NCBI RefSeq assembly: GCF_001519055.1
Contig: NZ_KQ954293.1
Span: 62,001-126,000, forward strand
Length of the DNA: 64,000 nt
Reading direction: 5' to 3'
Origin: Novosphingobium sp. Fuku2-ISO-50
Lineage (GTDB): Bacteria; Pseudomonadota; Alphaproteobacteria; Sphingomonadales; Sphingomonadaceae
Under the pieces are notes generated by a model. The model did not search any database. It saw nothing but the letters and a program-made list of their open reading frames with translations, and was not told the origin of the DNA. Shown in pieces: positions 45,822 to 61,355 of the stretch. Both the position numbers and the translations under genes were made by a program. Each line of letters opens with the position of its first letter. The stretch's first letter is position 1.

Positions 45822-46005
45822 GTCCCTGCGTCGCAGCTCGACAGAACAGGGTGTACCTCAGTCATCCATGCCAGACGCCACCTGCGACCATAGTAAAAAA
45901 TATTTAAGCTGCCTGCCTCCCGGCACACGCTGACACAGCGCAAAATATCGGCCATTGCGTCTCGGACGCTTTTGCATTCCGCCATTCATGAGAAAGGCCC
46001 GAACA
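45822..46005. promoter_or_regulatory. Divergent promoter region, ATPase / methyltransferase
   Basis: This 184-base gap holds an AT-rich core (AGTAAAAAATATTTAAG near 45893) suited to promoter elements on either strand. No clear palindromic operator is seen. Confidence 0.4.
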
Positions 46006-46734
46006 ATGATATCCGTGAAGGGAGAAGCAGGTTTGGCATTGGAGCGGAAAAGCCTGGGCGAGCTGCCCGATTTTGCTGCGGTATGCCGAATGGTGGACGT
46101 CGCAGGACTAAGCCTGGTGGATGTCGGTTGCGGACCGGCCATCGCGTCGCGCGAACTGGTCGCTCGCGGTGCCACCGTGCTCGGCGTCGAGCCCGATCCG
46201 GTGCAGGCCGGCAAGAACCGGGCGGCCAATCCGGTGACCGGCCTGACACTGATCGAAGCTCGGGCAGAAAGCCTGCCCGTGGAAAGTGCCTCGGTCGATG
46301 GCGTGCTGTTTTTCCGCTCGCTCCATCATGTACCCATCGATGCCATGGACACCGCACTTGCCGAAGCCGCGCGCATTCTCAAACCGGATGGATTCCTCTG
46401 CGTGGTCGAGCCCGGCATGGCCGGCAGCCATTTTGCGGTCATGCGCCCCTTCAACGATGAGACCCGGGTACGAACCGAAGCGCAAGCCGCGCTCACCCGC
46501 ACTGCTCGAAGCCTGTTCCGAGACGCGACCGGCTTTTGCTTCGACCAGTATCCGCGCTATGCCTCCTTCGAGGCGATGGTCGCCCGCGTGACGGGACTGA
46601 CTTTCAACGCCACCACCCGCGATCAGGTCGAGACAGATGAAGTGCGAGCCTTGTTCGAGACTGGCCGCACGCCTGAAGGCGATTATGTTTTTGAGCAGCC
46701 GATGCTGATGGATCTTTATCGTGGGCTTGCCTGA
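46006..46734 (+). CDS. Class I SAM-dependent methyltransferase
   Basis: A 242-residue methyltransferase with the Rossmann motif I LSLVDVGCGPAIASREL near residue 35-51, motif II acidic end VLGVEPD near residue 58-64, and VDGVLFFRSLHHVP near residue 94-107. The C-terminal helices differ from UbiE/COQ5. Substrate unknown. The ATG at 46006 follows GAAAGGCC. In-frame codons upstream give no extra homology. A second methyltransferase gene follows after 67 bases. Confidence 0.78.
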   Translation: MISVKGEAGLALERKSLGELPDFAAVCRMVDVAGLSLVDVGCGPAIASRELVARGATVLGVEPDPVQAGKNRAANPVTGLTLIEARAESLPVESASVDGVLFFRSLHHVPIDAMDTALAEAARILKPDGFLCVVEPGMAGSHFAVMRPFNDETRVRTEAQAALTRTARSLFRDATGFCFDQYPRYASFEAMVARVTGLTFNATTRDQVETDEVRALFETGRTPEGDYVFEQPMLMDLYRGLA

Positions 46735-46801
46735 ACTGCCACCTTCCATATTAGTACCTTCGCATATACGCAGAGACTCTTCCGCCAGAAAGGACCTCTC
46801 G

Positions 46802-47668
46802 ATGCCCGACACTTCCCCCCATTCTCCCGAAGCCATAACCATGGAAGACTGGGCGGGCGAAATGGGCGAACGCTGGCTGGCCAATCTCAAGGGGTTTGAA
46901 AGCACGATCGCTCCTGTGGGCGAAGCCCTGCTGACCCACGCCGGCTATCGCCCCGGCGAACGGGTGCTCGACATCGGCTTTGGCGGGGGCGCGACCAGTC
47001 TGGCTATCGCCCGCGCCGTGGCCCCCGGCGGCGAGGTGCTGGGGATCGACATTTCACCCGATCTGGTCGCCGCGACCACCCGCCGGGCCGCGACCGAAGG
47101 TGTAACCAATGCACGCTTCGTGTGTGCCGACGCCGCCCATGTGATTGTGCCGGATGCGCCTTATGATCGTTTGTGTTCGCGCTTTGGCAGCATGTTCTTT
47201 GCCGATCCGTTTGGTGCATTCGCCAATCTGCGCAAGGCGCTGAAGCCGGGTGGACGGATCGATCTGGCCGTCTGGGCGCCGCCGCGGGACAATCCCTGGA
47301 TGAGCGCTGCCGTGGCGCTGGCGCGGCGCCATATCGATCTGCCTGCATCGATACCTGGCGCACCTGGCCCATTTGCCTTTGACGATCCCGCCTATCTGAA
47401 CGCCATCCTGACAAAAGCCGGCTTTCACGCGGTGAATTGTGTGCCGATCACCGGCCTGCTTCCGGTTGGCGGGCCGGGCAGCACGCCCGAAACCGCGCTG
47501 ACCTTTGCCCGCAACGCCTTGTCGACCGGCCGGGTGCTGCTTGAATATCCCGACAGCGTTCAGCAAGCGGTGGCGAGCGAACTGCGCGAACTCTACGCCC
47601 ATCATGACCGCCCCGGCGAGGGGGTCATGATGGGCTACGCCGCATGGCTGGTATCAGCACGGGCCTGA
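46802..47668 (+). CDS. Class I SAM-dependent methyltransferase
   Basis: A 288-residue methyltransferase. ERVLDIGFGGGATSLAIARA near residue 53-72 is motif I, GGEVLGIDISPDLV near residue 76-89 is motif II, and FGAFANLRKALKPGGRIDLAVWAPP near residue 138-162 spans motif III and the following strand. It matches the group often annotated near UbiE. The substrate is unknown. AGAAAGGACC precedes the ATG. The upstream gap shares CATATTAGT and TATATGCG words with the SQR promoter at 53809. Its 3' end overlaps the haemoglobin gene by 15 bases on the other strand. Confidence 0.8.
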   Translation: MPDTSPHSPEAITMEDWAGEMGERWLANLKGFESTIAPVGEALLTHAGYRPGERVLDIGFGGGATSLAIARAVAPGGEVLGIDISPDLVAATTRRAATEGVTNARFVCADAAHVIVPDAPYDRLCSRFGSMFFADPFGAFANLRKALKPGGRIDLAVWAPPRDNPWMSAAVALARRHIDLPASIPGAPGPFAFDDPAYLNAILTKAGFHAVNCVPITGLLPVGGPGSTPETALTFARNALSTGRVLLEYPDSVQQAVASELRELYAHHDRPGEGVMMGYAAWLVSARA

Positions 47669-48082
47669 GCGGGCGGCGGGCTGGTTGGCCATGTGCCAAC
47701 CCAGCCCGTCGATCTTTTCCAGAATGCCGTCCGCGACCGGCGATGGCGGCACGATCTCATGCCACGCCTGGTGAAAGCACAACAGCCAACCCTCGACTTC
47801 GATCGATCCGATCGGGGCCATGAAATGGCGGCTCCTGAGCCGTGGGTGGCCGTATTTCTCGGTGTAGAGCGGCGGGCCGCCCAGCCAGCCGGTCAGGTAT
47901 TCGAACAGTTTCTCCTCCGCGCGCACCAGTGACGGCGGATGCACCGCCCGACAGGCAGCCGCCTCAGGCAGGATGTCCATCAACGCATAGAAGCGAGCGA
48001 CCAGCGCGCGGACCATCGTCTCGCCACCAAGCACGTCATAGGGTGATTTCTGCGGTGTGTGCGGTGTGTTGGTCACGGTCAT
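47654..48082 (-). CDS. Group II truncated haemoglobin
   Basis: A 142-residue globin of the trHb2 class. PYDVLGGETMVRALVARFYA near residue 14-33 is the A/B helix region, RHFMAPI carries the proximal His, and VEGWLLCFHQAW places the conserved Trp of the distal pocket. Group II globins bind O2, NO or sulfide, and in bacteria often protect against nitrosative stress or work with thiol enzymes. The ATG at 48082 overlaps the thioredoxin stop in ATGA. A longer start at 48094 is less likely. Co-translation with thioredoxin suggests a redox partner. Confidence 0.82.
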   Translation of the reverse strand: MTVTNTPHTPQKSPYDVLGGETMVRALVARFYALMDILPEAAACRAVHPPSLVRAEEKLFEYLTGWLGGPPLYTEKYGHPRLRSRHFMAPIGSIEVEGWLLCFHQAWHEIVPPSPVADGILEKIDGLGWHMANQPAARSGPC

Positions 48083-48501
48083 GCCCACGTCCATTCAACG
48101 ATGCGGCGGGCGTCCATCGCCCCCGACACGCGCTTCACTTCGCGTCCACCGGCAAACAGCGCCAGCGTGGGGATCGAACGAATGCCATGCGCGCCGGCCA
48201 GCGCCTGCTCTTGTTCGGTATCCACCTTGAGCAGACGCGCCTGTGGCTCCAGCATGCGGGCGGCCTGGTCGAACGCAGGCGCCATCGCCTTGCACGGGCC
48301 GCACCACGGCGCCCAGAAATCGACCAGTACCGGCAAAGTGCCTTTGCCGATATGCGCTGCAAAAGCAGTGCCGCCCGCCGTCAGCGGATGGCCGGTGAAC
48401 AGTGGTTGGTGGCATTTGCCGCAGTTGGGCGCCTCTGCCAGCCGTTCCGGTGGCACCCGGTTGCCCGCCAGGCAGTGCGGGCAAACGACGATTTCGCTCA
48501 T
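48079..48501 (-). CDS. trxC: Thioredoxin 2 (zinc-ribbon thioredoxin)
   Basis: A 140-residue thioredoxin with an N-terminal zinc ribbon: VVCPHCLAGNRVP at residues 5-17 and NCGKCHQPL near residue 26-34 give the four Cys ligands. The active site is WAPWCGPCKAM near residue 63-73, and the cis-Pro is in SIPTLALF. This architecture is specific to TrxC, an oxidative-stress thioredoxin. A GAGGAAATC site precedes ATG 48501. Palindromes C and D lie 48 bases upstream, between the gene and any promoter further right. Confidence 0.88.
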   Translation of the reverse strand: MSEIVVCPHCLAGNRVPPERLAEAPNCGKCHQPLFTGHPLTAGGTAFAAHIGKGTLPVLVDFWAPWCGPCKAMAPAFDQAARMLEPQARLLKVDTEQEQALAGAHGIRSIPTLALFAGGREVKRVSGAMDARRIVEWTWA

Positions 48502-48548
48502 GATTTCCTCCGACGGCCAGCGCCGCTCAATGACGACCACAGCCGCCG

Positions 48549-48717
48549 CTAGTGGATTGTTTTTGACATTTGCATCCCGCCATCCGGATAGCACGGCCGC
48601 AAATATCAAAAACGGAAAATCAACTAGAATCAAATGTTTCTAGTGGTCCAAAAAGATTCTGACATTTGCGCACCACCTAGCCGAGAGCGGTAGCAAATGT
48701 CAGAATCGGACCACTAG
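48549..48717. repeat. Paired CTAG-bounded palindromes C and D with linker
   Basis: Hairpin C is 48549-48627 and hairpin D 48640-48717. The short arms are again 25 bases from CTAG, with inner parts GTTTTTGACATTTGC (C) and GATTCTGACATTTGC (D). The linker-proximal arms carry 4 and 5 extra bases. The linker AATCAAATGTTT (48628-48639) is the exact reverse complement of the linker at 18409-18420. Stem C has two mispairs, stem D none outside the bulge. Confidence 0.87.
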
Positions 48718-48826: not shown

Positions 48827-49171
48827 CTAGGCCGATAACTGCGACGGACACGATCTCGTGGCCATATCGCCGCCATAACAAAGACCACACAGGGCATGGA
48901 TGATGCCCGATACCACGCGATCCTTCAGGCTGTACCAGCGGATGTTTGCCTCGATCCGCACCGAAACCGCATCTTCGGCGCGCAGCAGGGCCAAGTGCTG
49001 CGACACGCCCGATTGCGACAACCCGGTCAGCGCGACCAGTTCGTTGACGCTGACTTCGCTCTCATCCATCCGACACAGCATCAACAGGCGCTCGGGATGG
49101 CTCATCACTTTCAGGCGTTGCGCCATATATCCGGCATTGGCCTTCAACTCGGTCAGGTCGGCGGGTTTCAT
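48827..49171 (-). CDS. ArsR-family persulfide sensor (SqrR/BigR-like)
   Basis: A 114-residue winged-helix repressor. ELVALTGLSQSGVSQHLALLR near residue 44-64 contains the recognition helix. Cys33 (MLCRM) and Cys95 or Cys98 (HALCGLC) match the two cysteines that form a tetrasulfide bridge in SqrR and a disulfide in BigR. Metal-sensor CxC motifs are absent. With SQR, rhodanese, persulfide-dioxygenase-like and TSUP genes nearby, it is very likely the sulfide-responsive repressor of both divergent operons. It is the last gene of the leftward one and is coupled to the RND gene by ATGA. Confidence 0.87.
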   Translation of the reverse strand: MKPADLTELKANAGYMAQRLKVMSHPERLLMLCRMDESEVSVNELVALTGLSQSGVSQHLALLRAEDAVSVRIEANIRWYSLKDRVVSGIIHALCGLCYGGDMATRSCPSQLSA

Positions 49172-52100
49172 GATGCCTCCACAGATAGTGGCACGCCATC
49201 GTCGCGCAAGACAACATAGATCGCGGGGATCACCAGCAGCGTCAGCAAAGTGGACGAGGCCAGGCCAAACAGCAGCGAGATCGCCAGTCCCTGAAAGATC
49301 GGATCGGTCAGGATCACGCTGGCGCCGATCATGGCCGCCGCTGCGGTCAGCGCGATGGGCTTGACGCGGATGCGCCCGGCCTCGAGCAGCACCGCACGCA
49401 ACGGTTTGCCCGGGGTGCTGGCATGGCGGATGAAATCGACCAGCAGGATCGAATTGCGCACGATGATGCCCGCCAGCGCGATAAAGCCGATCATGCTGGT
49501 GGCGGTAAACGGCGCGCCGAACAGCATGTGGCCGATAACGATGCCGATCAGCGTCAGCGGCACCGGCGTCAGGATCACCAGCGGCAGTTTGAACGAGCCG
49601 AACTGCCCGACCACCAGCACATAGATCGCGAGCAAGGCAACCATGAAGGCCCCGCCCATGTCGCGGAAGGTAACCCACGTGATTTCCCATTCGCCATCCC
49701 ACAACAGGCTGGCATGGCTTTCATCGTCAGGCTGGCCGTGGAGCAGGATCACGGGCTTGGCCAGGCCTTTGCCCGCCCAATCATAGGCATCGATCGCCTG
49801 ATCGACCGCCAGCATGCCATAGATCGGCGCTTCATAGCGCCCGGCAAGATCAGCCATGACCATTGTCGCACCGCGCCCATCGCGCCGGAACATGGCCTGC
49901 CCGCCCAGTTCGCTGTGCGCATCGACCAGCGCACCCAGGCTCAGCAATTGCCCGGAGGGCGCCATCGCGACAGGCGTTGCCGCCAGGTCGCCACTCCACT
50001 GCCGCTGGCTCTGGTCAAGCCCGAACACGATCGGCAAAGGATCGCGATCGGCGCCGCGCGGCGCATAGCCGAGCGTCTGCGTCCCCATCAAAGCGCCGAT
50101 ACTGTCCAGCACTTGCCGTTCGCTGACGCCATATTGGTCGAGCTTGCTGCGGTCAGGCACCAACCGCAACGTGGGCACGGCATGGCCAAACGAATTGTCG
50201 GTATCGACGATGAACGGCACCGATTTGAAGATCTGTTCCACCGCCAGCGCGGTCTTTTGGCGCGTCGCCTCGTCCGGGCCATAGATTTCAGCCAGCAGCG
50301 TTGCCAGCACCGGCGGTCCGGGCGGGGTTTCCACGACTTTGATTACGCCGCCTTCCGGCAGGGCGATCCCCTTCAGCCGCTCGCGCAAGTCGACCGCAAT
50401 GGCGTGGCTCGACCGGCTGCGGTCACCCATGGGCTTGAGGCTGACCATGACATCGCCGAGATTGGGCGCGGCGCGCAGGAAATAATGGCGCACCAGACCG
50501 TTGAAGTTGAACGGCGCGGCGGTGCCGGCGTAGCTTTCCATCGCGGTGACTTCGGGCATCTGCCGCGCGACGGCCGACGCCGCCTCCAACACGCGCGAGG
50601 TGCCTTCAAGGCTGGTGCCGACGGGCATGTCGACCACCAGTTGCACTTCGCTCTTGTTGTCAAACGGTAGCAGCTTCACCACCACCGCCTTGAAATAGAA
50701 CATGCTGCACGCAACCAGCGTGGCAACCCCGACACCGATCAGAAAACCGCGCGCGCTGGCACGGGTGGCGATCACGCGTGAGGCATACCGGGCATAGATT
50801 GCGCCCAGCCGACCGCCACCGGCCATTTCGTGGTCGTGCCCGGTCAGCGCCTTGCGCGCAAAGCGGATCATCAGCCAGGGCGCAATGATCACCGCGACAA
50901 AGAAGCTGAACACCATCGCCGCCGAGGCATTGATCGGAATGGGCGCCATATAGGGGCCCATCAGTCCCGACACGAACAGCATCGGCAGAAGCGCCGCAAC
51001 CACCGTCAGCGTGGCGATGATCGTGGGATTGCCGACTTCGGCGACCGCCTCGATCGCGGCCTGCTGCCGGCTGCGGCCATCGCGCATCGCCCAATGGCGA
51101 GCGATGTTCTCGATCATCACGATCGCGTCATCGACCAGGATGCCGATCGAGAAGATCAGCGCGAACAGGCTGACCCGGTTGATCGAAAAACCCATGATGC
51201 GCGAGGCGAACATCGTCAGCATGATCGTGGTGGGGATGACGATCGCGGTCACCCCGGCTTCGCGCCAGCCAATCGCAAAACCGATCAGGATGACGATAGA
51301 CACCGTGGCGAGCGCCAGGTGGAAGATCAGCTCGTTCGCCTTGTCGTCCGCCGACTGGCCGTAATTGCGCGTGACGTTGACGGCCACGCCCGCCGGGACC
51401 AGTGAGCCCTTCAACGCTTCGACCCGGGCGATCACCGCCTGCGAGACATTGACCGCGTTGGCGCCGTTGCGCTTGGCCACGGCGATGGACACCGCAGGGG
51501 CAGAGGTCCAGCCATGCTGCGCGTCCCTTGCCCAGCGCCAACTGCGCGCCTGATCCTGAGTCGCGCCGGTCACGACTTGCGCGACATCACCCAGCTGCAC
51601 CGGTGCGCCGCCAGCTGAACGCACGGTCAGCGCGCGCACTTCGTCGGCGCTGGTCAACGACCGGCCAGCGGTCACCGCCATGGCGGCGCCGTTTTCGCGC
51701 ACCGTGCCGCCGGGAAAGCTGCGCCCGGCCTGACCGATCGCATCCATGACAGCAGACAGCGGCACGCGGGCAGCTGCCAGGCGCGCGGGATCGGGGATCA
51801 CGCGGATGGCGTCCTGCTGGCCGCCGGTGATGAAGGTAATGCCGACATCATCCACTTTTGCGACTTCGCTGCGCAGCTTGGTCGCCAGTTCGAAAAGCGT
51901 GCGGTCATCCCATTGCCCGACCGCGCCCGGTTTGGGGGTCAGCGTCAAGACCACGATCGGCACATCGGATATGCCGCGCGTGGTGATCTGCGGCGGAGCA
52001 ATCCCGACCGGAATCCTGTCGACGTTGGCCTTGATCTTTTCGTCGATGCGGGTTGCTGCGGCTTCCGGATTGGACCCGACGACAAACCGCGCGGTCACGA

Positions 52101-52383
52101 GCACGCCATTGTCCTGCGCCTGGGTATAGACATGCTCGACGCCATCGACCGATTTGACGATCGTTTCGAGCGGCTTGGCGGCCAGCTCGATCGCATCGGG
52201 CGCCGAAAGGCCGGGGGTGGCCACGCGGATATCGACCATCGGCACGCTGATCTGCGGTTCTTCCTCGCGCGGGATGGTGATCGTGGCGATCAGCCCGACC
52301 ATGATCGCCGCCAGCAAAAACAGCGGCGTCAGCGGAGAAGCGATGGTGGCGCGCGTGATGCGGCCCGAAATGCCCAGATTCAT
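49168..52383 (-). CDS. RND efflux transporter, inner-membrane pump (AcrB family)
   Basis: A 1071-residue pump, the usual size. TM1 is TPLFLLAAIMVGLIATITIP, two large periplasmic domains follow TM1 and TM7, and the TM4 region has FSIGILVDDAIVMIENI with the proton-relay Asp pair near residue 407-408. The second half repeats the pattern (IALAGIIVRNSILLVDFIRH). The sequence resembles the heterogeneous HAE group lacking a known drug. It overlaps the membrane-fusion gene upstream and the ArsR gene downstream, both in ATGA, so it is made under persulfide control. The outer-membrane channel is probably the TolC-like gene at 55416. Confidence 0.9.
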   Translation of the reverse strand: MNLGISGRITRATIASPLTPLFLLAAIMVGLIATITIPREEEPQISVPMVDIRVATPGLSAPDAIELAAKPLETIVKSVDGVEHVYTQAQDNGVLVTARFVVGSNPEAAATRIDEKIKANVDRIPVGIAPPQITTRGISDVPIVVLTLTPKPGAVGQWDDRTLFELATKLRSEVAKVDDVGITFITGGQQDAIRVIPDPARLAAARVPLSAVMDAIGQAGRSFPGGTVRENGAAMAVTAGRSLTSADEVRALTVRSAGGAPVQLGDVAQVVTGATQDQARSWRWARDAQHGWTSAPAVSIAVAKRNGANAVNVSQAVIARVEALKGSLVPAGVAVNVTRNYGQSADDKANELIFHLALATVSIVILIGFAIGWREAGVTAIVIPTTIMLTMFASRIMGFSINRVSLFALIFSIGILVDDAIVMIENIARHWAMRDGRSRQQAAIEAVAEVGNPTIIATLTVVAALLPMLFVSGLMGPYMAPIPINASAAMVFSFFVAVIIAPWLMIRFARKALTGHDHEMAGGGRLGAIYARYASRVIATRASARGFLIGVGVATLVACSMFYFKAVVVKLLPFDNKSEVQLVVDMPVGTSLEGTSRVLEAASAVARQMPEVTAMESYAGTAAPFNFNGLVRHYFLRAAPNLGDVMVSLKPMGDRSRSSHAIAVDLRERLKGIALPEGGVIKVVETPPGPPVLATLLAEIYGPDEATRQKTALAVEQIFKSVPFIVDTDNSFGHAVPTLRLVPDRSKLDQYGVSERQVLDSIGALMGTQTLGYAPRGADRDPLPIVFGLDQSQRQWSGDLAATPVAMAPSGQLLSLGALVDAHSELGGQAMFRRDGRGATMVMADLAGRYEAPIYGMLAVDQAIDAYDWAGKGLAKPVILLHGQPDDESHASLLWDGEWEITWVTFRDMGGAFMVALLAIYVLVVGQFGSFKLPLVILTPVPLTLIGIVIGHMLFGAPFTATSMIGFIALAGIIVRNSILLVDFIRHASTPGKPLRAVLLEAGRIRVKPIALTAAAAMIGASVILTDPIFQGLAISLLFGLASSTLLTLLVIPAIYVVLRDDGVPLSVEAS

Positions 52384-53384
52384 TGCCCGCCACCTGCAAG
52401 GGTATCGCCGACATTCACGCCGGAAAGAATCTCGATATTGCCGCCCTGCGCCGGCGCTGTCTGCACCGGCACGCGCATCGCGGTGCCGTCATGCGCCACC
52501 ACAGTCACGGTATCGAGCCCAAAGCGTGTGGTCACAAACTGCTTGGGCACCAACATCGCATGGTGCGTCCCTGCGGCCACACGAGCGGACATGCGCCGAT
52601 CGATCAACCGGGCATCCAGTCCCGGGACAGCCACATCGGCAGAAACCTGCCCAGCCTGCACAGCGGGATAGACGCGGGTCACCGTGCCCTCATTGGCAAG
52701 GCCGTCGACCTGTACCTTTGCACCCGGCAGCACTTTGGCAGCCAGGCCTTCAGGCAAATCAAGCCGCAGCAGCACCGGGCCGGAAGTCACCACCGCAATC
52801 ACCATGCCCGGCGTGACCGGCGCACCGGCGGGCACATCGGCGCGCAGCACGCGACCGTCGGACGGCGCCACCACCGCGCCCTGCCCGGCCATCGCATTGA
52901 CCGAAGACTGTTGCGCCCGCGCCGCCTGTACTTGCGCCCCGGCCGCATTGGCCGCGGCTTCGACTTGTTCGAGCCGTGCCTTGGCATAGACGCCGTTCTG
53001 GTAAAGGAAACGCACACGGTCCAGCTCCGCCTTCGCCTGACTGGCCTGAGCCCCGGCCGCAGCCGCCTGAGCACCGTAAGCGCTCGCCTGAAAGCCCAGT
53101 TGCGTGTCGGTGATCCGTCCGATGGCCTGTCCCCGGCGGACGCTATCGCCAGCCCGTACCGACAGGCTGGAAAGTATGCCCGGAATCCGCGCAAGCACCT
53201 GGGCCTGATCGCGCGTCGTCACTTGGGCGGAAACGCTTTGCCAATCGGGCGCATCGCTCATTGCCACGGTCATGCGCGGGCCGGAAGGCGCCTTTGCCGG
53301 CACCTCCGGTTGCTTGTCGCTGCCGCATCCGGCCAGTGCCACCACCCCGGTCAGCAATGCTGCCAGAACCACGCCCTTGCGCAT
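52380..53384 (-). CDS. RND periplasmic adaptor (membrane fusion) lipoprotein
   Basis: A 334-residue HlyD/AcrA-type adaptor. The signal ends in LTGVVALAGCGSD, a lipobox that would anchor the mature protein at Cys. LARIPGILSSLSVRAGDSVRRG near residue 71-92 is the first half of the lipoyl domain, QAAAAGAQASQAKAELDRV-type sequence is the alpha hairpin, and VAPSDGRVLRADVPAGAPV is the second lipoyl half. AGGAGAGGC precedes the ATG at 53384. A GTG one codon earlier is possible. It links the RND pump to an outer-membrane channel. Confidence 0.88.
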   Translation of the reverse strand: MRKGVVLAALLTGVVALAGCGSDKQPEVPAKAPSGPRMTVAMSDAPDWQSVSAQVTTRDQAQVLARIPGILSSLSVRAGDSVRRGQAIGRITDTQLGFQASAYGAQAAAAGAQASQAKAELDRVRFLYQNGVYAKARLEQVEAAANAAGAQVQAARAQQSSVNAMAGQGAVVAPSDGRVLRADVPAGAPVTPGMVIAVVTSGPVLLRLDLPEGLAAKVLPGAKVQVDGLANEGTVTRVYPAVQAGQVSADVAVPGLDARLIDRRMSARVAAGTHHAMLVPKQFVTTRFGLDTVTVVAHDGTAMRVPVQTAPAQGGNIEILSGVNVGDTLAGGGQ

Positions 53385-53415
53385 CACGCCTCTCCTGCCG
53401 TCTTGATGTTATGGT

Positions 53416-53754
53416 TCAGCGCTCGATCGGCAGGCCGGCCGACTTCCATGCGCCGAACCCGCCCGCCAGATGGGTGTCAACAGCGGCCTGCGCCGTGACA
53501 CATTTGTCGAGCGCCGTAGCGGACCGTTTGCCGCCAAGGCAATTGAGCACCAGGGTCTTGCCCTTGGGATCGGGCAGTTTGCTGGCCTGAAAGGTCGACA
53601 ACGGCATGTTGATCGCGCCCGGAATATGCCCGGCGGCAAATTCATCCACTTCGCGCACATCGACCACCAGCGCTTGTTGCGCCTTGATCATTGCGTTGAG
53701 CGCATCAGCACCAATCTCGCGGTGTTTCACCGATTTTCCAAAACCAAAGACCAT
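53416..53754 (-). CDS. Rhodanese-like sulfurtransferase
   Basis: A single-domain rhodanese of 112 residues. The active-site loop is NCLGGKRS with Cys72, and VVDVREVDEFAAGHIPGAINMP near residue 30-51 is the CH2-A signature. It carries sulfane sulfur from persulfides to sulfite or other acceptors in the cytoplasm. It is the first gene of the leftward operon, directly facing the SQR promoter. In sulfide oxidation it would make thiosulfate from the sulfite and persulfide produced by the rightward genes. Confidence 0.88.
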   Translation of the reverse strand: MVFGFGKSVKHREIGADALNAMIKAQQALVVDVREVDEFAAGHIPGAINMPLSTFQASKLPDPKGKTLVLNCLGGKRSATALDKCVTAQAAVDTHLAGGFGAWKSAGLPIER

Positions 53755-53808
53755 CGCTGCAGATCCCTTTCAATGCGGACGGCGCCACCCTCTAAAATCA
53801 TCACTTGC

Positions 53809-53832
53809 TTATATGCGGCGTAAGTCATATTA
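53809..53832. promoter_or_regulatory. Operator-like inverted repeat between rhodanese and SQR operons
   Basis: TTATATG (53809-53815) and CATATTA (53826-53832) match at 6 of 7 positions around a 10-base spacer, in the AT-rich part of the 152-base divergent region. The SqrR/BigR-like repressor at 48827 is the expected ligand. The words TATATGCG and CATATTAGT recur at 46747-46768. Confidence 0.55.
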
Positions 53833-53906
53833 GTCAAGCGCGATTCAGGAACGCTGCGCGAATCTATCGTGACCGTGCCTAATGAAAACCTGAGGGAGAG
53901 TAGTCC

Positions 53907-55202
53907 ATGTCATTGCCCCGGATCATTGTCCTTGGCGCCGGCCTTGGCGGAACGATTGCAGCCTATGAACTCCGCGAGGCGACCAAAGGGCGCGCGGATG
54001 TCATGGTGGTGTCCGATACCGACGATTACTGGTTTGTCCCGTCGAACCCGTGGGTCGCGGTGCGTTGGCGCGAGCCGGATGCCATTCGTGTTCACTTGCC
54101 CCCGGTCATGAAAAAGCGCGGTATCGGCTTTACCAATGTGGGCTGCACCCGCGTTCATCCGACGGAAAATCGCCTCGATCTGGGCGATGGCAGCAGCATG
54201 ACCTATGATTATCTGGTCATCGCCACCGGGCCCGAACTGGCCTTTGACGAGATCAAGGGCCTGGGCCCCGACGGACACACCGTTTCGGTCTGTCGCACCG
54301 ATCACGCCAGCCACGCCGCCGATGAATTCGATGCCTTTTGCGCCAATCCGCGCCCGATCGTGGTCGGCGCAGCGCAGGGCGCATCGTGCTTTGGCCCGGC
54401 CTACGAATTTGCGCTGATCCTCGACACCGAGCTGCGCCGCCGCAAAATCCGCGACCAGGTGCCGATGACGTTTGTCACCTCGGAACCCTATGTCGGCCAC
54501 CTGGGGCTCGACGGCGTTGGTGACACCAAGGGTTTGCTCGAAAGCGAAATGCGCAACCGCCACATCAAATGGGTGACCAACGCGCGTATCACCAGCGTCG
54601 ATGACGGCATGATGCATGTCGAGGAAGTGGCCGAGGATGGCGCGGTAAAAAAGACCCACGACCTGCCGTTCGGCTATTCGATGATCCTGCCGGCGTTCCG
54701 CGGAATCAAGGCGGTGTTCGGGGTCGAAGGCCTGACCAACCCGCGCGGGTTCATTCTGGCCGACAAGTACCAGCGCAATCCCAATTTCAAGAACATCTAT
54801 TCGCTGGGCGTGTGCGTCGCCATTCCGCCGATCGGGCCGACCCCGGTGCCGGTGGGCGTGCCCAAGACCGGGTTCATGATCGAATCCATGGTGACGGCCG
54901 TCGCGCACAATCTCGCAGCGGAACTCGATGGCAAGCAACCGACCGACATCCCCAGCTGGAATGCCGTGTGCCTTGCGGATTTCGGCGACGGCGGCGTGGC
55001 ATTTGTCGCCCAGCCGCAGATCCCGCCGCGCAATGTCAACTGGTCGAGCCACGGCAAATGGGTCCACCTCGCCAAAGTCGGCTTCGAAAAGTACTTCCTG
55101 CGCAAAGTCCGGATGGGCACCAGCGAGCCGGCCTATGAAAAGCTCGCGCTGCAAATCTTGGGCATCAGCAAGCTGAAGGCAACCACGAAAGGAGCTTCAT
55201 GA
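53907..55202 (+). CDS. sqr: Sulfide:quinone oxidoreductase
   Basis: A 431-residue FAD enzyme. IIVLGAGLGGTIAAYELRE at residues 6-24 binds FAD. Cys161 (GASCFGPAYEF) and Cys303 (SLGVCVAIPP) are placed like the two sulfur-bridging active-site cysteines, and Cys80 or Cys129 may be the third. The C-terminal amphipathic region after residue 380 would attach to the membrane. It oxidises sulfide to persulfide or polysulfide and reduces quinone. GAGGGAGAG precedes the ATG. It overlaps the next gene in ATGA and leads the persulfide-handling operon. Confidence 0.88.
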   Translation: MSLPRIIVLGAGLGGTIAAYELREATKGRADVMVVSDTDDYWFVPSNPWVAVRWREPDAIRVHLPPVMKKRGIGFTNVGCTRVHPTENRLDLGDGSSMTYDYLVIATGPELAFDEIKGLGPDGHTVSVCRTDHASHAADEFDAFCANPRPIVVGAAQGASCFGPAYEFALILDTELRRRKIRDQVPMTFVTSEPYVGHLGLDGVGDTKGLLESEMRNRHIKWVTNARITSVDDGMMHVEEVAEDGAVKKTHDLPFGYSMILPAFRGIKAVFGVEGLTNPRGFILADKYQRNPNFKNIYSLGVCVAIPPIGPTPVPVGVPKTGFMIESMVTAVAHNLAAELDGKQPTDIPSWNAVCLADFGDGGVAFVAQPQIPPRNVNWSSHGKWVHLAKVGFEKYFLRKVRMGTSEPAYEKLALQILGISKLKATTKGAS

Positions 55203-55405
55203 TGACGCTTGATTCCGCCGTTATGCGTTTTGCCGGTGTTGTTGTTCTGGGCAGCGCTCTTGCTGCACATTTCATCAATCCCGCCTGGATCTGGTTGACC
55301 CTGTTTGCCGGCGCCAACATGTTTCAGGCGAGCTTTACCCGCTTTTGCCCTGCCGCCATCGTGTTCAAGGCGCTGGGTGTCAGGCCCGGCAACACCTTCA
55401 AGTAA
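55199..55405 (+). CDS. DUF2892 (YgaP membrane domain-like) small membrane protein
   Basis: A 68-residue protein with two transmembrane helices (near residues 8-26 and 28-45) and the signature FQASFTRFCPAAIVFKALG near residue 42-60. In YgaP the same domain is fused to a rhodanese, and free versions often accompany SQR and rhodanese genes. The single Cys in FCPA may take part in sulfur relay or thiocyanate/sulfide passage. It is coupled to SQR by ATGA and followed by AAGGA for the TolC-like gene. Confidence 0.82.
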   Translation: MMTLDSAVMRFAGVVVLGSALAAHFINPAWIWLTLFAGANMFQASFTRFCPAAIVFKALGVRPGNTFK

Positions 55406-55415
55406 GGATACCGTG

Positions 55416-56693
55416 ATGCGCTGCTGGTGCCTTGCCCGACTTCGCCCCCTTGCGCCCTTGCCCTTCCTGCTGCTGGCGCATTCGGCCAGCGCACAGGATC
55501 TGACCACCGCCATCAGCGATGCGCTGGGCCACGCGCCTGCGCTGGCCGAGGCGCAATCGGACGAAGCGCTCGCCAGCGCAAAACTCGACGCTGCCCGGGC
55601 TGAAGGGCATCCGCTGGTGTCGGTGCAAGGCCAGGTCGGCGCAGGCCGGATCGACAACGGCGGCTTTTTTGGCTTTACCGCGCAAAATGTCACGCCGCTG
55701 GCGGTGCAGGCAGGGGCCGAAATGCCGCTCTATGCCGGGGGCCGGGTAGCCGCCGCGATCGATCAGGCGCATGGCGGGGTAGACATGGCCAGACTGGGGC
55801 TGGCCGATGCGCGGGCGCGCACTATCGTTTCGGCCGTCGCGGCTTATGCTGAAGTGCTGACCGCGCGCCGGATCGAGGCGCGGTTTCGCCACTTGACGAG
55901 CGAACTGACCGAAGTCGAACGTCAGGCCGGCTTACGCTTCAAGACCGGCGAAATCCCGGCCTCAGAGCTTGCCGCCGCCACGGCTCGCCGTGCCGAAGGC
56001 GATGCCGGTCTGGCCGGCGCCGAAGGCCGAAGGATCAGCGCCGAAGCGCAGTTTCGCCGCCTGACCGGCCATGATGCCGGGGCGCTTGCTCCCCTGCCCG
56101 CCTTGCCGGCAACACCGCCGACACTCGATGAAGCGGTCGATTCTGCGCATCAGGCCAATCCGGCGCTGGCGCAGGCCGAAAAGGGCATCGACATCGCCCG
56201 CGCTGGCGTGCGCGCAGCCAAAGCCGAAAGCCTGCCGACGATCGGCGCCTTTGCCGAAGCGACCCGCACCCGCGACCAGTTCTTCCCCGGATACCAGGCC
56301 GATGCGTTCGCAGTGGGCATTCGCGGCCACTGGACGCTGTGGGCGGGCGGGCGGACCAATGCCAAAATTCACGAGGCCGATGCCACGCTGGACGGCAGCG
56401 AGGCGCGCGCCCGCGATGCCCGCGACAGCGTCGACAGCGCAGTGATCACGGCGTGGACGGGCCTTGCCACGGCCGGGCACATGGTGGCTGCCACCGCTGC
56501 ACGTTCCGCAGCCGCAGCCGAAGCCTTGCGTTCGACCCAGTTGGAAGCGAAAGTCGGCGCCAAGCCCACGCTGGCGGTGCTCGATGCCGAACGCGAGGCC
56601 ATGGCCGCCGAAGCTGCCATGATCGAGGCCGAGGGCCAGCGGCTGATCGCCGCCTGGCAGCTCAACGCGCTGACCGGCGCACTGTCGCCATGA
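55416..56693 (+). CDS. TolC-family outer-membrane channel protein
   Basis: A 425-residue protein with a signal peptide (LPFLLLAHSASAQ) and the two repeated coiled-coil halves of TolC proteins: LTTAISDALGHAPALAEAQ near residue 30-48, LTARRIEARFRHLTSEL, then LDEAVDSAHQANPALAQAEK near residue 235-254 and FAVGIRGHWTLWAGGR near residue 295-310. The ATG at 55416 follows AAGGA. No pump gene lies in this operon, so it most likely completes the RND system encoded in the divergent operon. That would put all three parts under one sulfide-responsive control. Confidence 0.85.
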   Translation: MRCWCLARLRPLAPLPFLLLAHSASAQDLTTAISDALGHAPALAEAQSDEALASAKLDAARAEGHPLVSVQGQVGAGRIDNGGFFGFTAQNVTPLAVQAGAEMPLYAGGRVAAAIDQAHGGVDMARLGLADARARTIVSAVAAYAEVLTARRIEARFRHLTSELTEVERQAGLRFKTGEIPASELAAATARRAEGDAGLAGAEGRRISAEAQFRRLTGHDAGALAPLPALPATPPTLDEAVDSAHQANPALAQAEKGIDIARAGVRAAKAESLPTIGAFAEATRTRDQFFPGYQADAFAVGIRGHWTLWAGGRTNAKIHEADATLDGSEARARDARDSVDSAVITAWTGLATAGHMVAATAARSAAAAEALRSTQLEAKVGAKPTLAVLDAEREAMAAEAAMIEAEGQRLIAAWQLNALTGALSP

Positions 56694-57601
56694 CCGACCA
56701 CGCGCTCGCCCGCGCCCAAACCATCATCGGTTCAGGCGGCACCCCGATCGTGCGGAGCTTCTTCGACGAGGCCACGTTCACCGCCACGCATGTCGTGCAC
56801 GACCCAGTCAGCCGTCAGGCTGCGGTGATCGACCCTGTGCTCGATTTCGACCCGGCCTCGGGCCGCACCGGCACTGTCGCTGCCGAAGCGGTTGCGGCCT
56901 ATGTCGAGGCGCTCGATCTGACCGTGGCCATGCTGATGGAAACCCATGCCCATGCCGATCATCTGTCGGCGGCGACCTGGTTGCAGGCGAGGCTGGGTGG
57001 CCAGGTCGTGATCGGGCGCGATATCGTCACAGTGCAGAAGACCTTCGGCGATCTGTTCAACGAACCCGCCGGCTTTGCGCGCGACGGTTCGCAGTTCGAC
57101 CTCCTGATCGGCGATGGTGACAGCCTTGCCCTGGGCATGATTGCGGGCGTTGCGCTCCATGTGCCGGGGCATACCCCGGCCTGTATGGCCTATGTCATCG
57201 GCGACGCGCTGTTTGTCGGCGATACGTTGTTCATGCCGGACTATGGCACCGCCCGTGCCGATTTTCCCGGCGGAGAAGCGGCGATGCTGTTCCGGTCGAT
57301 CCGCCGGCTGATGCAGCTTCCCGCTGCAACGCGGGTGTTCCTGTGCCACGATTACGGCGCGCCCGGTCGCGATCACTTCGTCTGGGAAACCACCATCGGC
57401 GACGAACGGGCGCACAACATCCATGTTCACGAAGGCATCGGTGAAGTTGATTTTGTCACGATGCGCCAGGCCCGCGACGCGACGCTGTCCATGCCGCGCC
57501 TGATGCTGCCTGCGGTACAGGTGAACATGCGCGCAGGGCACCTGCCCGATGCCGAGGCCAACGGCGTCAGTTATCTCAAGCTTCCGGTCAACCTGCTCTG
57601 A
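56690..57601 (+). CDS. MBL-fold persulfide-dioxygenase-like hydrolase (Blh/ETHE1 type)
   Basis: A 303-residue metallo-beta-lactamase-fold protein. THAHADHL near residue 85-92 gives His86, His88, Asp90 and His91. His161 (VPGHTP), Asp178 (VGDTLF) and His220 (FLCHDYG) complete the iron site pattern of ETHE1-type enzymes. RADFPGG near residue 189-195 is typical of persulfide dioxygenases and of Blh from BigR operons. It should oxidise glutathione persulfide to sulfite. The ATG overlaps the TolC stop. The extra C-terminal 60 residues (RAHNIHVHEGIGE) are characteristic of the Blh branch. Confidence 0.87.
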   Translation: MTDHALARAQTIIGSGGTPIVRSFFDEATFTATHVVHDPVSRQAAVIDPVLDFDPASGRTGTVAAEAVAAYVEALDLTVAMLMETHAHADHLSAATWLQARLGGQVVIGRDIVTVQKTFGDLFNEPAGFARDGSQFDLLIGDGDSLALGMIAGVALHVPGHTPACMAYVIGDALFVGDTLFMPDYGTARADFPGGEAAMLFRSIRRLMQLPAATRVFLCHDYGAPGRDHFVWETTIGDERAHNIHVHEGIGEVDFVTMRQARDATLSMPRLMLPAVQVNMRAGHLPDAEANGVSYLKLPVNLL

Positions 57602-57603
57602 TC

Positions 57604-58386
57604 ATGAACCTGCTGCATGCCGTGCTGTCGCTGCTGAGCGGAGGTCTGGTCGGCTTTACGCTGGGTCTGTTGGGCGGCGGCGGGTCGGTCCTGGCGGTGC
57701 CGTTGATGGTTTACGTCGTCGGCGTGCGAAATCCGCATCTGGCCATCGGCACCAGCGCCTTTGCGGTGGCCGTCAACGCCATGGCGGGGCTGGCGGGACA
57801 TGCGCGCGGGCGTAACGTCAACTGGCCGATCGGCGCAGCGTTTGCCCTGGCCGGTGTGATCGGCGCGCTGGCCGGATCGAGTCTGGGCAAGGCGATCAAT
57901 GGCCAGCGGCTGCTGTTTCTGTTTGCCCTGCTGATGATCGTGGTCGCAGCGGCAATGTTCCGATCGCGCAGCGCTAGCGGAATTGACGGCGTGACCTGCC
58001 ATCGCGGCAACCTGCCACGCGTGCTCGGCTTTGGCTTTGCGACGGGATGTCTTTCCGGATTTTTCGGCATCGGCGGGGGATTTCTGATCGTGCCCGCGCT
58101 GATCGCGGCGACATCCCTGCCAATCTATCAGGCCATTGGCACATCGCTGGTCGCGGTCAGCGCGTTCGGCCTGACCACGGCTGCGAATTACGCCGCTTCG
58201 GGCCTGGTCGACTGGTCTCTGGCCGGCACGTTCATCGCAGGCGGGATGGGCGGCACCGTGCTGGGCACTGCTGCCTCGCGGCGTCTTTCTGCCCGCAAGG
58301 GGCAGCTCAACATGCTGTTCGCGGCCGGCATCGTGCTGGTGGCGATCTATATGCTTTACCGCAGTTGGGCGGCGCTGTCCGCTTAG
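57604..58386 (+). CDS. TSUP (TauE/SafE) family sulfite exporter
   Basis: A 260-residue membrane protein with about seven or eight hydrophobic helices. SGGLVGFTLGLLGGGGSVLA near residue 13-32 and the related GCLSGFFGIGGGFLIVPALI near residue 143-162 are the two internal repeats of the TSUP family. It likely exports sulfite or another sulfur anion made by the persulfide dioxygenase. It begins 2 bases after the previous stop and ends the operon, followed by a strong hairpin. BigR operons of other bacteria contain a comparable TSUP gene. Confidence 0.87.
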   Translation: MNLLHAVLSLLSGGLVGFTLGLLGGGGSVLAVPLMVYVVGVRNPHLAIGTSAFAVAVNAMAGLAGHARGRNVNWPIGAAFALAGVIGALAGSSLGKAINGQRLLFLFALLMIVVAAAMFRSRSASGIDGVTCHRGNLPRVLGFGFATGCLSGFFGIGGGFLIVPALIAATSLPIYQAIGTSLVAVSAFGLTTAANYAASGLVDWSLAGTFIAGGMGGTVLGTAASRRLSARKGQLNMLFAAGIVLVAIYMLYRSWAALSA

Positions 58387-58628: not shown

Positions 58629-59777
58629 TCAATAGAAATCGGGGCTGGTGCGGACGTCGGCCAGGGTGATCCTGCCCGCCAGCACTTTCATGACCCACGC
58701 TGTGTAGATCAGCACGATCGGCAGAAACACGACCGTCACCAGCAGCATGATGAACAGCGTCAGATGGCTGGAGGATGCATTCCACACAGTCAGGCTCGAC
58801 CGGGGATCGATCGAACTGGGCAGGATGAAAGGAAACATCGACAAGCCGACCGTGGCGATCGTGCCCACGATTGCCAGTGCAGAGCCGACAAAGTTCACCA
58901 CGCCCTTGCGTGACAAAATCCCGATCAGCGCCAGCATCGGCCCGATCAGCCCCAACGCCGGGGCGATCAGCATCCAGGGATGGGCGGCATAGTTATCGAG
59001 CCACGCGCCCGGCATTGCGACAGAGCCCGACATCAAGGGATTGGATGGCCCTGACGCGTCCACGACGCCGACCAGACGCATGCCCATGCCGCTCTTGGCC
59101 ACCATCAGGCCGCCCGCAGCAAACAACACGATCGCAGCGATCCCGGCGGCAAAACCGATCCGCCGAGCCCGAACCAGAACCGGTCCGTCCTCGATCTTGA
59201 GCGCCAACCAGCCAGCGCCATGCAGCGCCAGCATGGCCACCGACAACACGCCGGTCAGCAGCGTAAAGGGCGTAAACAGGCCCAGCAGCGAACCTTCGTA
59301 AGTCATGCGCAAATCGCTGTCGAAGCGGAACGGCGCGCCGACCAGGACATTGCCGACCGCCACGCCGAAGACCAGCGCAGGGACCAGTCCGCTGACAAAC
59401 AGTGCCCAGTCCCACCGCGCGCGCCACGCCGGATCGGCATGCTTGGAACGGTATTTGAACGCCACCGGCCGCAGGATCAGCGCCGCCAACACCAGGAACA
59501 TGGCGAGGTAAAAGCCCGAAAAGCTGACCGCATAGACAAACGGCCAGGCGGCAAAGATCGCCCCGCCGCCCAGGATGAACCACACTTGGTGGCCCTCCCA
59601 ATGCGGCGCGATAGCGTTGATGGTCAGCCGGCGCTCTTCATCATCGTGCGCCACAAACGGCAGCAGCGAGGCAACGCCCAGGTCATAGCCATCGGTCAGC
59701 GAAAAGCCGATCAGCAGCACGCCCAACAGCACCCACCAAATCAGGCGCAAGGTTTCATAATCGAGAGGGATATGCAT
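58629..59777 (-). CDS. cydB: Cytochrome bd ubiquinol oxidase subunit II
   Basis: A 382-residue membrane protein of usual length with about nine helices. LIWWVLLGVLLIGFSLTDGYDLGV near residue 11-34 and NAIAPHWEGHQVWFILGGGAIFAAWP near residue 53-78 are CydB signatures. It binds no haem but supports the quinol oxidase. Lying 12 bases after cydA, it is co-transcribed. Cytochrome bd is less sensitive to sulfide than haem-copper oxidases, which suits its position beside the sulfide island. Confidence 0.93.
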   Translation of the reverse strand: MHIPLDYETLRLIWWVLLGVLLIGFSLTDGYDLGVASLLPFVAHDDEERRLTINAIAPHWEGHQVWFILGGGAIFAAWPFVYAVSFSGFYLAMFLVLAALILRPVAFKYRSKHADPAWRARWDWALFVSGLVPALVFGVAVGNVLVGAPFRFDSDLRMTYEGSLLGLFTPFTLLTGVLSVAMLALHGAGWLALKIEDGPVLVRARRIGFAAGIAAIVLFAAGGLMVAKSGMGMRLVGVVDASGPSNPLMSGSVAMPGAWLDNYAAHPWMLIAPALGLIGPMLALIGILSRKGVVNFVGSALAIVGTIATVGLSMFPFILPSSIDPRSSLTVWNASSSHLTLFIMLLVTVVFLPIVLIYTAWVMKVLAGRITLADVRTSPDFY

Positions 59778-59789
59778 CTGTCTGCTCCC

Positions 59790-61355
59790 TTATTCGGCGG
59801 GGATTGCGGCAAACGCCGACATGGCTGTGGGAGCCGGCTGGTGATGTTCGATCGGTCCCTTCCGGATCGAGGCGATCATCAATCGGACCTCGATCACCGC
59901 CAGCGTGCCATAGAGCGCGGTAAAGCCCACGATAGTCGTCCAGATCTGTGCGATCGTCAGCGACGAAACGCCCAGGAACGTCGGCAACACCCCGTCGACC
60001 GACCATGGCTGACGCCCGATTTCGGCAAGCACCCAGCCACTCTCGATCGCCAGCCACGGCAGCGGGATCATCAACACCGCCAGCTTGAGGAACCACCGCT
60101 TGGAAAAGTGGCAGGCCGACGCACAATAGAAGGCCATGGCGAAGTAGGCGATGAAACCAAAACCGAGTCCGGCCATGCCGCGGAACAGCCAGAACATCAC
60201 CGGCACATTGGGCACGGTGTCGGATGCCGCCTTCAGGATCTTGGCATCGCTCGCCTGACGCGGATCGGCCACGTAGCGCTTGACCAGCAAGGCAAAGCCG
60301 ATGTCGCGCTTGTGCGCTTCGAACGCTGCGCGCGCGGTCAGGTCGGTGCTGTTCAGTTTCAGCTTCTGGACAGCGTCATAGCCGATAATGCCGCTATGAA
60401 TCCGTTGATCGGCCTGCAGCACAAGATCATTGATCCCGGTCACTTCGCCGGTCAGGCTGCGCGTACCGATCAACCCCAGTACGTAGGGCACCTTGATCTC
60501 GTAAAGCGTCTGCTTGGTCGCAAGATCGGGCAGGCCGAACAAGGTCAGGCCGGCGGGCGCCGGTTCCGTCTTCCACATCGCCTCGATCGCGGCCATTTTC
60601 ATCTTCTGGTTGTCGGAAACGGTATAACCGCTCTCGTCACCGAGCACGACCACCGACAGCGAAGAGGCCAGACCGAACGCGGCAGCCACCATCATCGAAC
60701 GGCGCGCGACATTGGTCCACTTGCCCTGCAGCAGGTAAATGGCCGAAACGCCCATCACGAACGTCGCCGCACAGACATAGCCGGCACTGACGGTATGGAC
60801 GAATTTGGCCTGCGCCACCGGGTTGAACAGCACGGCTGAAAAGTCGGTCACTTCCATGCGCATCGTCAACGGATTGAAGCTGGCGCCGACCGGGTTTTGC
60901 ATCCAGCCGTTGGCGATCAGGATCCATAGCGCCGACAGATTGGAACCAAGCGCAACCATGAAGGTGACGAACAGGTGCTGCACCCGGCCAAGCCGATCCC
61001 AGCCAAAGAACATCAAACCGACAAACGTGGCTTCGAGGAAAAATGCCATCAACCCTTCGATCGCCAATGGCGCACCAAAGATATCACCGACATAATGAGC
61101 GTAATAGGCCCAGTTGGTGCCAAATTCGAATTCCATGGTCAGGCCCGTGGCCACACCGAGGACAAAATTGATACCGAAGAGCTTGCCCCAGAACCTGGTG
61201 GTCACGCGCCAGATCGGGCGCTTGGTGATCACATAGATGCTCTCCATGATCACCAGCATGAAGGACAAGCCAAGCGTCAGAGGCACGAAAAGAAAATGGT
61301 ACATCGCTGTCAGTGCAAACTGCAGCCTTGAAAGTTCGACAATCGCCATATCCAT
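59790..61355 (-). CDS. cydA: Cytochrome bd ubiquinol oxidase subunit I
   Basis: A 521-residue CydA. RLQFALTAMYHFLFVPLTLG near residue 9-28 contains the haem ligand His, ESGWVLAEIGRQPW near residue 432-445 is the CydA signature of the haem/quinol region, and KFVHTVSAGYV near residue 184-194 carries a further haem His. The Q-loop region (residues about 245-330) includes QKMKMAAIEAMW. The ATG at 61355 follows GGAG. Ten residues in the longer frame upstream are not conserved. It oxidises quinol and reduces O2 to water at low oxygen. Confidence 0.94.
   Translation of the reverse strand: MDMAIVELSRLQFALTAMYHFLFVPLTLGLSFMLVIMESIYVITKRPIWRVTTRFWGKLFGINFVLGVATGLTMEFEFGTNWAYYAHYVGDIFGAPLAIEGLMAFFLEATFVGLMFFGWDRLGRVQHLFVTFMVALGSNLSALWILIANGWMQNPVGASFNPLTMRMEVTDFSAVLFNPVAQAKFVHTVSAGYVCAATFVMGVSAIYLLQGKWTNVARRSMMVAAAFGLASSLSVVVLGDESGYTVSDNQKMKMAAIEAMWKTEPAPAGLTLFGLPDLATKQTLYEIKVPYVLGLIGTRSLTGEVTGINDLVLQADQRIHSGIIGYDAVQKLKLNSTDLTARAAFEAHKRDIGFALLVKRYVADPRQASDAKILKAASDTVPNVPVMFWLFRGMAGLGFGFIAYFAMAFYCASACHFSKRWFLKLAVLMIPLPWLAIESGWVLAEIGRQPWSVDGVLPTFLGVSSLTIAQIWTTIVGFTALYGTLAVIEVRLMIASIRKGPIEHHQPAPTAMSAFAAIPAE

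Follow-up and report, generated by a model that had tools for sequence, protein, structure and literature searches.

An efflux pump of the resistance-nodulation-division (RND) family and a set of sulfide oxidation genes lie back to back, in two divergent operons, at positions 48827 to 58386 of a 64,000-nucleotide stretch of DNA from Novosphingobium sp. Fuku2-ISO-50 (assembly GCF_001519055.1, contig NZ_KQ954293.1, positions 62,001 to 126,000; hereafter, the window). With moderate confidence, we favor the reading that this locus is a sulfide-stress regulon, whose ArsR-family sensor represses the sulfide-oxidizing set and a complete tripartite pump through one operator common to both operons. Sequence comparison suggests that the pump operon and the sulfide:quinone oxidoreductase (SQR) operon are probably switched on together by sulfide.

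On the minus strand, the gene order is rhodanese, periplasmic adaptor, RND permease and ArsR regulator, the permease gene overlapping both of its neighbors by 4 bp (permease/ArsR and adaptor/permease) in the style of a single operon. On the plus strand, SQR is followed by a YgaP-like membrane protein, a TolC-family channel, a persulfide dioxygenase (PDO) and a TSUP exporter. The RND tripartite set of permease, adaptor and outer membrane channel (PF00873, TIGR01730 and PF02321) is encoded together, here divided over the two operons. The original prediction, made from the window alone, had placed the sensor in one operon with the permease and adaptor, and the TolC-like gene in the opposite operon between SQR and PDO, with a TSUP gene also at hand; all genes that it named are present where it put them. 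It had overlooked one gene, for the 68-aa YgaP-like protein between SQR and TolC.

Conservation of the split layout

Adaptor orthologues with 60–70% identity are found in 13 of 36 same-genus relatives. These 13 genomes contribute 15 loci (two of them have two copies), giving with the window 16 Novosphingobium loci in 14 genomes; named carriers of the locus include N. rosa, N. hassiacum (DSM 14552, L063) and Novosphingobium sp. KCTC 2891. A survey of the split layout had been proposed with the original prediction, and it bears the layout out: SQR is divergent from the pump in 16/16 loci. SQR and the YgaP-like gene are each present in all 16, TolC in 15, rhodanese in 14, PDO in 8 and TSUP in 7. 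In a wider set comprising the best 80 loci of the survey (77 after duplicate removal; the named loci), SQR is found in 58/77 and is divergent in every one of these 58, PDO is found in 21/77, and TolC in 27/77, 25 of the 27 belonging to the nearer loci L054–L085, mostly of sphingomonads. Loci dropped as duplicates were L056, L074, L063, L135 and L136, which lie on the same contigs as L040, L046, L047, L091 and L088.

The association of pump and SQR was also assessed across whole genomes, using 385 evenly sampled Alphaproteobacteria (pump call at E ≤ 1e-250, SQR call at E ≤ 1e-80). The pump is present in 30 genomes, SQR of the Acidithiobacillus ferrooxidans type in 15, and both in 11, when 1.2 would be expected (Fisher p = 1e-10). 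With the genome of the window left out, 10 of 14 SQR genomes have the pump (p = 1e-9). Pump and SQR are on different contigs in one of the 11 sharing genomes. The arrangement of pump and SQR is not due to chance. Within the genome of the window, no SqrR-like ArsR or SQR was found in the fetched flanks (1.4–11 kb per side) of 12 other RND pumps.

The claim that a complete pump belongs to the sulfide response holds insofar as the sensor, SQR and the three pump components (permease, adaptor and TolC) are conserved as a unit, which a single operator probably controls; its novelty is partial, as described below. Neighboring genes of 115 loci were also clustered (genes shorter than 90 aa left out), and clusters could be named for RND, adaptor, SQR, TolC, TSUP, PDO, thioredoxin and cyd genes. 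The largest unnamed cluster occurs in 34/115 loci; some unnamed clusters are antisense shadows by position, and a further partner is possible.

A shared operator-like element

A single conserved stretch is found upstream of SQR, with the consensus TTGCnTATATncg...ATATnngTCAA; the element spans 38 bp in the window and has the core TTGCnnATAT-N12-ATATnnGTCAA. A matrix built on it scores above 12 in 68 of 75 SQR upstream regions (L049, L079, L088, L102 and L111 are excluded since no SQR start motif was detected), and the best of 75 shuffled regions reaches 5.1. Across 120 loci (2.23 Mb), 123 matches exceed 14 bits, whereas Markov-simulated sequence of equal length (2.23 Mb) gave 0, 0 and 0 matches in three runs. 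At this threshold, the element is present at the pump, SQR or ArsR promoter in 16/16 Novosphingobium loci, 71/77 named loci and 10/27 loci of the class sample (12/29 when L088 and L091 are counted in).

Since many of the scored loci had also served to train the matrix, a pattern search is the less circular test. Among 99 genomes of the genus, 31 contain the pattern, at 36 sites as against 2 for a reversed control. Besides that of the window, 29 sites were fetched: 26 lie between SQR and rhodanese or adaptor, one between rhodanese and thioredoxin, one between ArsR-rhodanese and PDO-TSUP, and one near none of these genes. At the ArsR-rhodanese/PDO-TSUP site (L206, same-genus genome G480), no SQR or pump is found within the 3 kb fetched. 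In the window the pattern occurs once, with 0.02 expected at up to three mismatches, and the pump-locus site is the sole exact match in the 4.42-Mb genome. Where ArsR heads the pump operon, the element center typically lies 19–25 bp before the aligned ArsR start. The element at 53803–53840 is read as a predicted ArsR operator, probably common to both operons.

Weaker copies of the element are found upstream of cydA, both in the window and in L039 (29.8), L040 (16.0), L054 and L067. In the window, the copy falls where cydA and an ABC transporter gene (cydD-like, judging by its position) diverge, and cydBA is possibly a further, co-regulated member of the regulon. Passages of PMC7315123 report that cydAB is sulfide-induced in other bacteria, which fits an element before cydA.

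Two further settings of these genes were observed. On another contig (C3) of the same genome, a second ArsR gene (L169, 8627–8950), whose product is 75% identical to that of the window, has a two-mismatch element upstream and an adjoining thioredoxin-like gene; no pump profile match was found within the 19 kb fetched around it. On plasmid pISP1 of Sphingomonas sp. MM-1 (L242), SQR-YgaP-like-TolC and rhodanese-adaptor-RND-ArsR gene groups lie near cydXBA, cydD and an integrase gene. Since pISP1 is typed as conjugative, these genes may be transferred together as one module. Pump relatives are found on 51 plasmid records, six of them typed conjugative.

The RND pump and its TolC partner

The permease represents a distinct branch. 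The main permeases of loci L039–L162 score at least 979 bits with its profile (that of L073 is split into two open reading frames), 12 other RND pumps of the genome at most 222.5 bits, and the nearest solved structure scores 216.5 bits. An Asp pair in transmembrane helix 4 (418 and 419) is invariant in 15 permease orthologues, and at the position of Arg976, Lys is found in 6 of 11 paralogues; these three residues would correspond to the AcrB proton relay. Cys559, the sole cysteine of the pump, was rejected as a candidate substrate site, because just 55% of 118 sequences share it; no constant cysteine marking a sulfur site was found in the pump among these sequences.

Loci outside the Alphaproteobacteria were also inspected. 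The pump subfamily was searched in 398 genomes of the phylum (E ≤ 1e-200), and 32 loci from 30 genomes were picked by hand among the matches, so that rates within them are not a random estimate; the profiles applied were trained on Alphaproteobacteria. Permeases of these 32 loci score 758 to 992 bits with the same permease profile. In three (L215, L222 and L226), TolC, adaptor, permease and SQR are joined in one operon; 5/32 loci, one of them among these three, include an ArsR whose cysteines form the canonical pair. Because of the joined operons, the TolC of the window very likely serves the RND pump, with which it would assemble. TolC might have belonged to another system instead; however, it is retained in seven of the eight Novosphingobium loci that lack PDO, which together with the joined operons argues against such a pairing.

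All eight of these PDO-less loci (of 16) keep SQR and the pump. At the genome level, no PDO was detected at E ≤ 1e-20 in 5 of the 14 pump genomes, a threshold that a remote ETHE1-type enzyme could escape. The absence of PDO where SQR and pump are kept favors the pump as the putative steadier outlet for the SQR product. In a bolder version of the regulon, the tripartite pump would be devoted to exporting sulfane sulfur: SQR would make polysulfide, S8 or an organic persulfide, and the adaptor-RND-TolC assembly would expel it beyond the outer membrane, replacing PDO in genomes without it. Sensors of a class whose cysteine pair is displaced (+62) would control all of this through one operator for both operons; we regard this version as tentative and, taken as a whole, doubtful.

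Weighing the regulon against alternative readings

Several observations weigh against the favored regulon and are drawn together here. For the Novosphingobium locus, expression, DNA binding and transport are all predicted from sequence comparison. TolC is found in only 2 of the 48 more distant named loci (L086–L133, mainly Caulobacterales and Rhizobiales), and an ArsR match is missing from L044, one of the 16 loci in Novosphingobium. Among the 29 class-sample pump loci besides the window (L088 and L091 standing in for their duplicates), SQR is found in only eight, seven of them divergent, and 11 have no ArsR match. A cysteine-pair ArsR is present in 17 of the 29 by script, or 18 when L141 is read by eye, so the pump's tie to its regulator is steadier than its tie to SQR. 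Beyond the class, the pump subfamily is broader than sulfur, being present in 105/398 phylum genomes, and 23 of the 32 chosen loci have no match to any of the sulfur profiles used. On a plasmid of Shinella sp. HZN7 (L243), a permease 59% identical to that of the window is accompanied by a TetR regulator and metal genes, with no annotated sulfur gene; the subfamily is therefore not bound to sulfur everywhere. As to the element, a search of the window's own genome at up to three mismatches yields three sites as against one for the reversed control, and the three-mismatch site, paralleled by that one control match, may be noise. A strict sigma-70 scan gave no promoter match at the element; TTGACT-N18-TATAAG can be read leftward within it by eye only.

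The pump could be an ordinary multidrug pump under a sulfide regulator, sulfide signaling a wider chemical threat and the sulfur link being regulatory only. The permease is indeed HAE-like, and 9 of the 29 class-sample pumps have no adjoining cysteine-pair ArsR, SQR or rhodanese by the profiles used, some of these lying at contig ends and one having SQR about 10 kb away. However, the element is common to pump, SQR and rhodanese in loci of Sphingomonadales, Caulobacterales and Rhizobiales, and SQR-pump operons are contiguous in other classes, and we consider this explanation unlikely.

The pump may instead be sulfide-induced and export metals or metal-sulfide species arising from sulfide stress, or another secondary toxicant, rather than sulfur. 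Metal-sulfide export has been proposed in PMC5358917 for RND pumps that are raised during H2S oxidation; according to the passages concerned, deletion of the whole pump operon of Azospira suillum left the H2S oxidation rate unchanged, a further point against the regulon as we read it, and its authors favor metal-sulfide efflux. Members of the subfamily are also found away from sulfur genes, in one case on a plasmid, close to a gene for a P-type cation ATPase. On the other side, the permease scores 402 bits with the HAE multidrug model and 250 bits (249.7) with the heavy-metal CusA/CzcA model TIGR00914, a difference that argues against metals, although both scores are under the respective cut-offs; the latter falls short of the 701.45 bits that mark a heavy-metal RND permease. 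The argument is weak, since the unnamed recurring neighbor clusters may include metal genes. This second alternative is, in our estimate, rather improbable, a little less so than the multidrug pump. The substrate of the pump is the weakest part of the favored regulon.

The regulator has a predicted ArsR winged-helix fold (pLDDT 88.5), and its top PDB matches are YgaV (3cuo first), NolR, HlyU, BigR and SqrR. In persulfide-sensing relatives, the cysteines of the pair are 66 residues apart (33/99 in YgaV, 41/107 in SqrR and 42/108 in BigR). For sHdrR, PMC12423496 gives cysteines 50 and 116. The sensor of the window, predicted originally to be SqrR/BigR-like, fits in fold and sequence; its cysteine pattern departs from the expected one. 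Cys33 is present, position 99 is Tyr, and the next cysteines are at 95 and 98 (+62 and +65), so that no pair has the spacing of 66; a further Cys108 lies in the disordered tail. The score with the BigR equivalog model NF040642 of NCBIfam is 57.6 bits, far below its cut-off of 155. Both points count against the regulon as well.

A sensor of this kind could answer another thiol-reactive or metal signal in place of persulfide, in line with that low score and with the lack of the canonical +66 cysteine in the window ArsR and other +62-type regulators. With a profile built from trimmed seeds, which underlies all ArsR counts given here, the +62 type is found by script in 15/16 Novosphingobium loci. 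The 77 named loci divide into 38 with the +62 type, 27 with +66, five with both, one with no pair and six with no ArsR; the 29 class-sample loci divide into 15 with +66, two with +62, one with no pair (L141, which has a one-residue insertion and is of the +62 type by eye) and 11 with none. Against another signal, Cys33 is invariant in 39 chosen aligned regulators, and the missing cysteine is replaced one helical turn earlier in the same last helix; a sulfur link from Cys33 to Cys95 (Cys33-Sn-Cys95) is plausible in the structural model because of this position. By position, the regulator serves SQR, PDO and rhodanese genes, and Rhizobiales loci with the same element carry the canonical cysteine pair. 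A signal other than persulfide is quite unlikely on these grounds, the least probable of the alternatives considered, and persulfide would presumably be the signal. Four Caulobacterales loci (L080, L082, L089 and L103) encode a pair of sensors: the ArsR preceding the adaptor is of the +66 type, and that following the permease of the +62 type.

Features of the locus and its neighbors

Coordinates are given in Table 1. SQR is assigned to the A. ferrooxidans type by full-length homology and three aligned cysteines, which we take to be catalytic. The TolC reading frame is open from 55305, and the start at 55416 is an ATG followed, by eye, by a signal-like N-terminus. For PDO, the NF040641 score is below the full-length cut-off of 625; the protein contains THAHADH (an HxHxDH motif) and resembles 9g8t, 4ysk and ETHE1, in keeping with membership of the PDO family. 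Downstream of ArsR, at 47654–48633, are genes for a thioredoxin 2 with an N-terminal zinc ribbon and a bacterial globin, followed beyond the globin gene by two successive methyltransferase-domain genes (45955–47668). Thioredoxin accompanies the pump in 6/16 Novosphingobium loci.

Table 1 Features of the pump and SQR locus in the window.
Feature	Position	Strand	Basis
ArsR-family regulator, SqrR/BigR/YgaV/HlyU-like	48827-49171	-	Cys33, Cys95, Cys98; residue 99 is Tyr; Cys108 in tail
RND permease, 1071 aa, divergent HAE1-like subfamily	49168-52383	-	PF00873, 461.5 bits; family signatures
RND periplasmic adaptor	52380-53387	-	TIGR01730, 128.4 bits (cut-off 94.9); lipobox-like LAGC by eye
Rhodanese, single domain	53416-53754	-	PF00581, 57.3 bits; matches include YgaP chains among others
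Shared operator-like element	53803-53840	between divergent operons	Matrix score 36.3
SQR, Acidithiobacillus ferrooxidans type	53907-55202	+	3sz0, 479 bits, residues 5-425; three cysteines aligned
YgaP-like transmembrane protein, 68 aa	55199-55405	+	PF11127, 40.6 bits (cut-off 25.3)
TolC-family outer membrane channel	about 55416-56693	+	PF02321, 157.1 bits; TIGR01844, 184.9 bits, below cut-off 225.15
PDO, metallo-beta-lactamase fold, Blh dioxygenase-domain type	56690-57601	+	NF040641, 347.8 bits over dioxygenase part; 9g8t, 4ysk
TSUP (TauE/SafE) exporter	57604-58386	+	PF01925, 167.4 bits
cydB and cydA, bd-type quinol oxidase	58629-61385	-	PF02322, PF01654; element upstream
Weaker element copy upstream of cydA	61444-61481		Matrix score 18.9

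A working model

In the favored regulon, an ArsR dimer would occupy the element at rest and block transcription in both directions. When sulfide arrives, basal SQR would generate persulfide, and sulfur would bridge Cys33 to a cysteine of the last helix (Cys95 or Cys98), upon which the repressor would leave the DNA. SQR, the YgaP-like protein, TolC, PDO and TSUP would then rise together with rhodanese, adaptor, RND permease and ArsR. Electrons from SQR would pass to quinone, probably re-oxidized by the bd oxidase. Part of the sulfane sulfur is expected to go to rhodanese and PDO and to leave as sulfite via TSUP, while the pump would move another product of sulfur stress over the outer membrane. 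The likeliest such product is sulfane sulfur, in the form of polysulfide, S8, or an organic persulfide or polysulfide.

To our knowledge, it is not settled how Gram-negative cells without PDO dispose of the sulfane sulfur made by SQR. A pump tied to SQR by a common promoter element in many Alphaproteobacteria, and on a conjugative-typed plasmid with cyd genes, makes it possible to test sulfur export directly by genetic means. A displaced sensor cysteine would broaden the rule for persulfide-sensing ArsR proteins, and surveys filtered by cysteine position may overlook sensors of the +62 type.

Comparison with known systems

The original prediction held that an RND pump in such a regulon was undescribed, and this is not borne out in full, since PMC12423496 (2025) and PMC5358917 (2017) report related associations in the passages concerned. 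Section 2.1 of PMC12423496 lists RND pumps among the neighbors of sulfane-sulfur ArsR regulators with a cysteine pair, with an apparent action on the pumps taken from genome context; the sHdrR/SqrR-like regulators beside RND pumps represent the same association as here. In Azospira suillum, Dsui_3440–3443 (an unknown gene, RND pump, SQR and RND adaptor) are highly expressed during H2S oxidation and show Bar-seq fitness effects (PMC5358917). That operon, like the present locus, combines an RND pump, SQR and an RND adaptor; it is contiguous whereas ours is split, the Azospira passages mention neither TolC nor ArsR, and the likeness is one of description, not of permease orthology. A search of openly available papers, which did not specifically target the element or the spacing of the cysteines, turned up no description of the shared element, of the TolC link or of the +62 pair; it speaks only weakly for their absence from the literature. 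The original observation itself holds and is strengthened, since the genes make up a conserved module that has a common promoter element.

The SqrR regulon of Rhodobacter capsulatus resembles the locus in having an ArsR-family repressor with sulfide-controlled SQR and rhodanese (passages of PMC9995734 and PMC9774250). The SqrR operator, ATTC-N8-GAAT in PMC9774250, resembles by eye the Rhizobiales/Bradyrhizobium element, as Bradyrhizobium loci contain ATAC-N8-GAAT within it. In contrast to R. capsulatus, the sensor here lies in the pump operon, its second cysteine is at +62/+65, and the Novosphingobium element has drifted from ATTC-N8-GAAT. The BigR operons (Xylella and Agrobacterium, PMC5823870; Acinetobacter, PMC7315123) share with the locus an ArsR repressor and a PDO of the Blh kind, as far as these sources describe them. 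Unlike here, the words 'TolC' and 'efflux' do not occur in the available text of PMC5823870, and the Acinetobacter operon, in the passages of PMC7315123, has a second PDO and two membrane proteins, with SQR under FisR.

The E. coli ygaVP system is also related, YgaV (3cuo) being the top structural match of the window ArsR. YgaP is, we assume, a rhodanese fused to a transmembrane domain, and the separate rhodanese and YgaP-like genes of the window presumably resemble a split YgaP. Compared with ygaVP, the two YgaP-like parts are here placed in two divergent operons, to which SQR and the pump are added.

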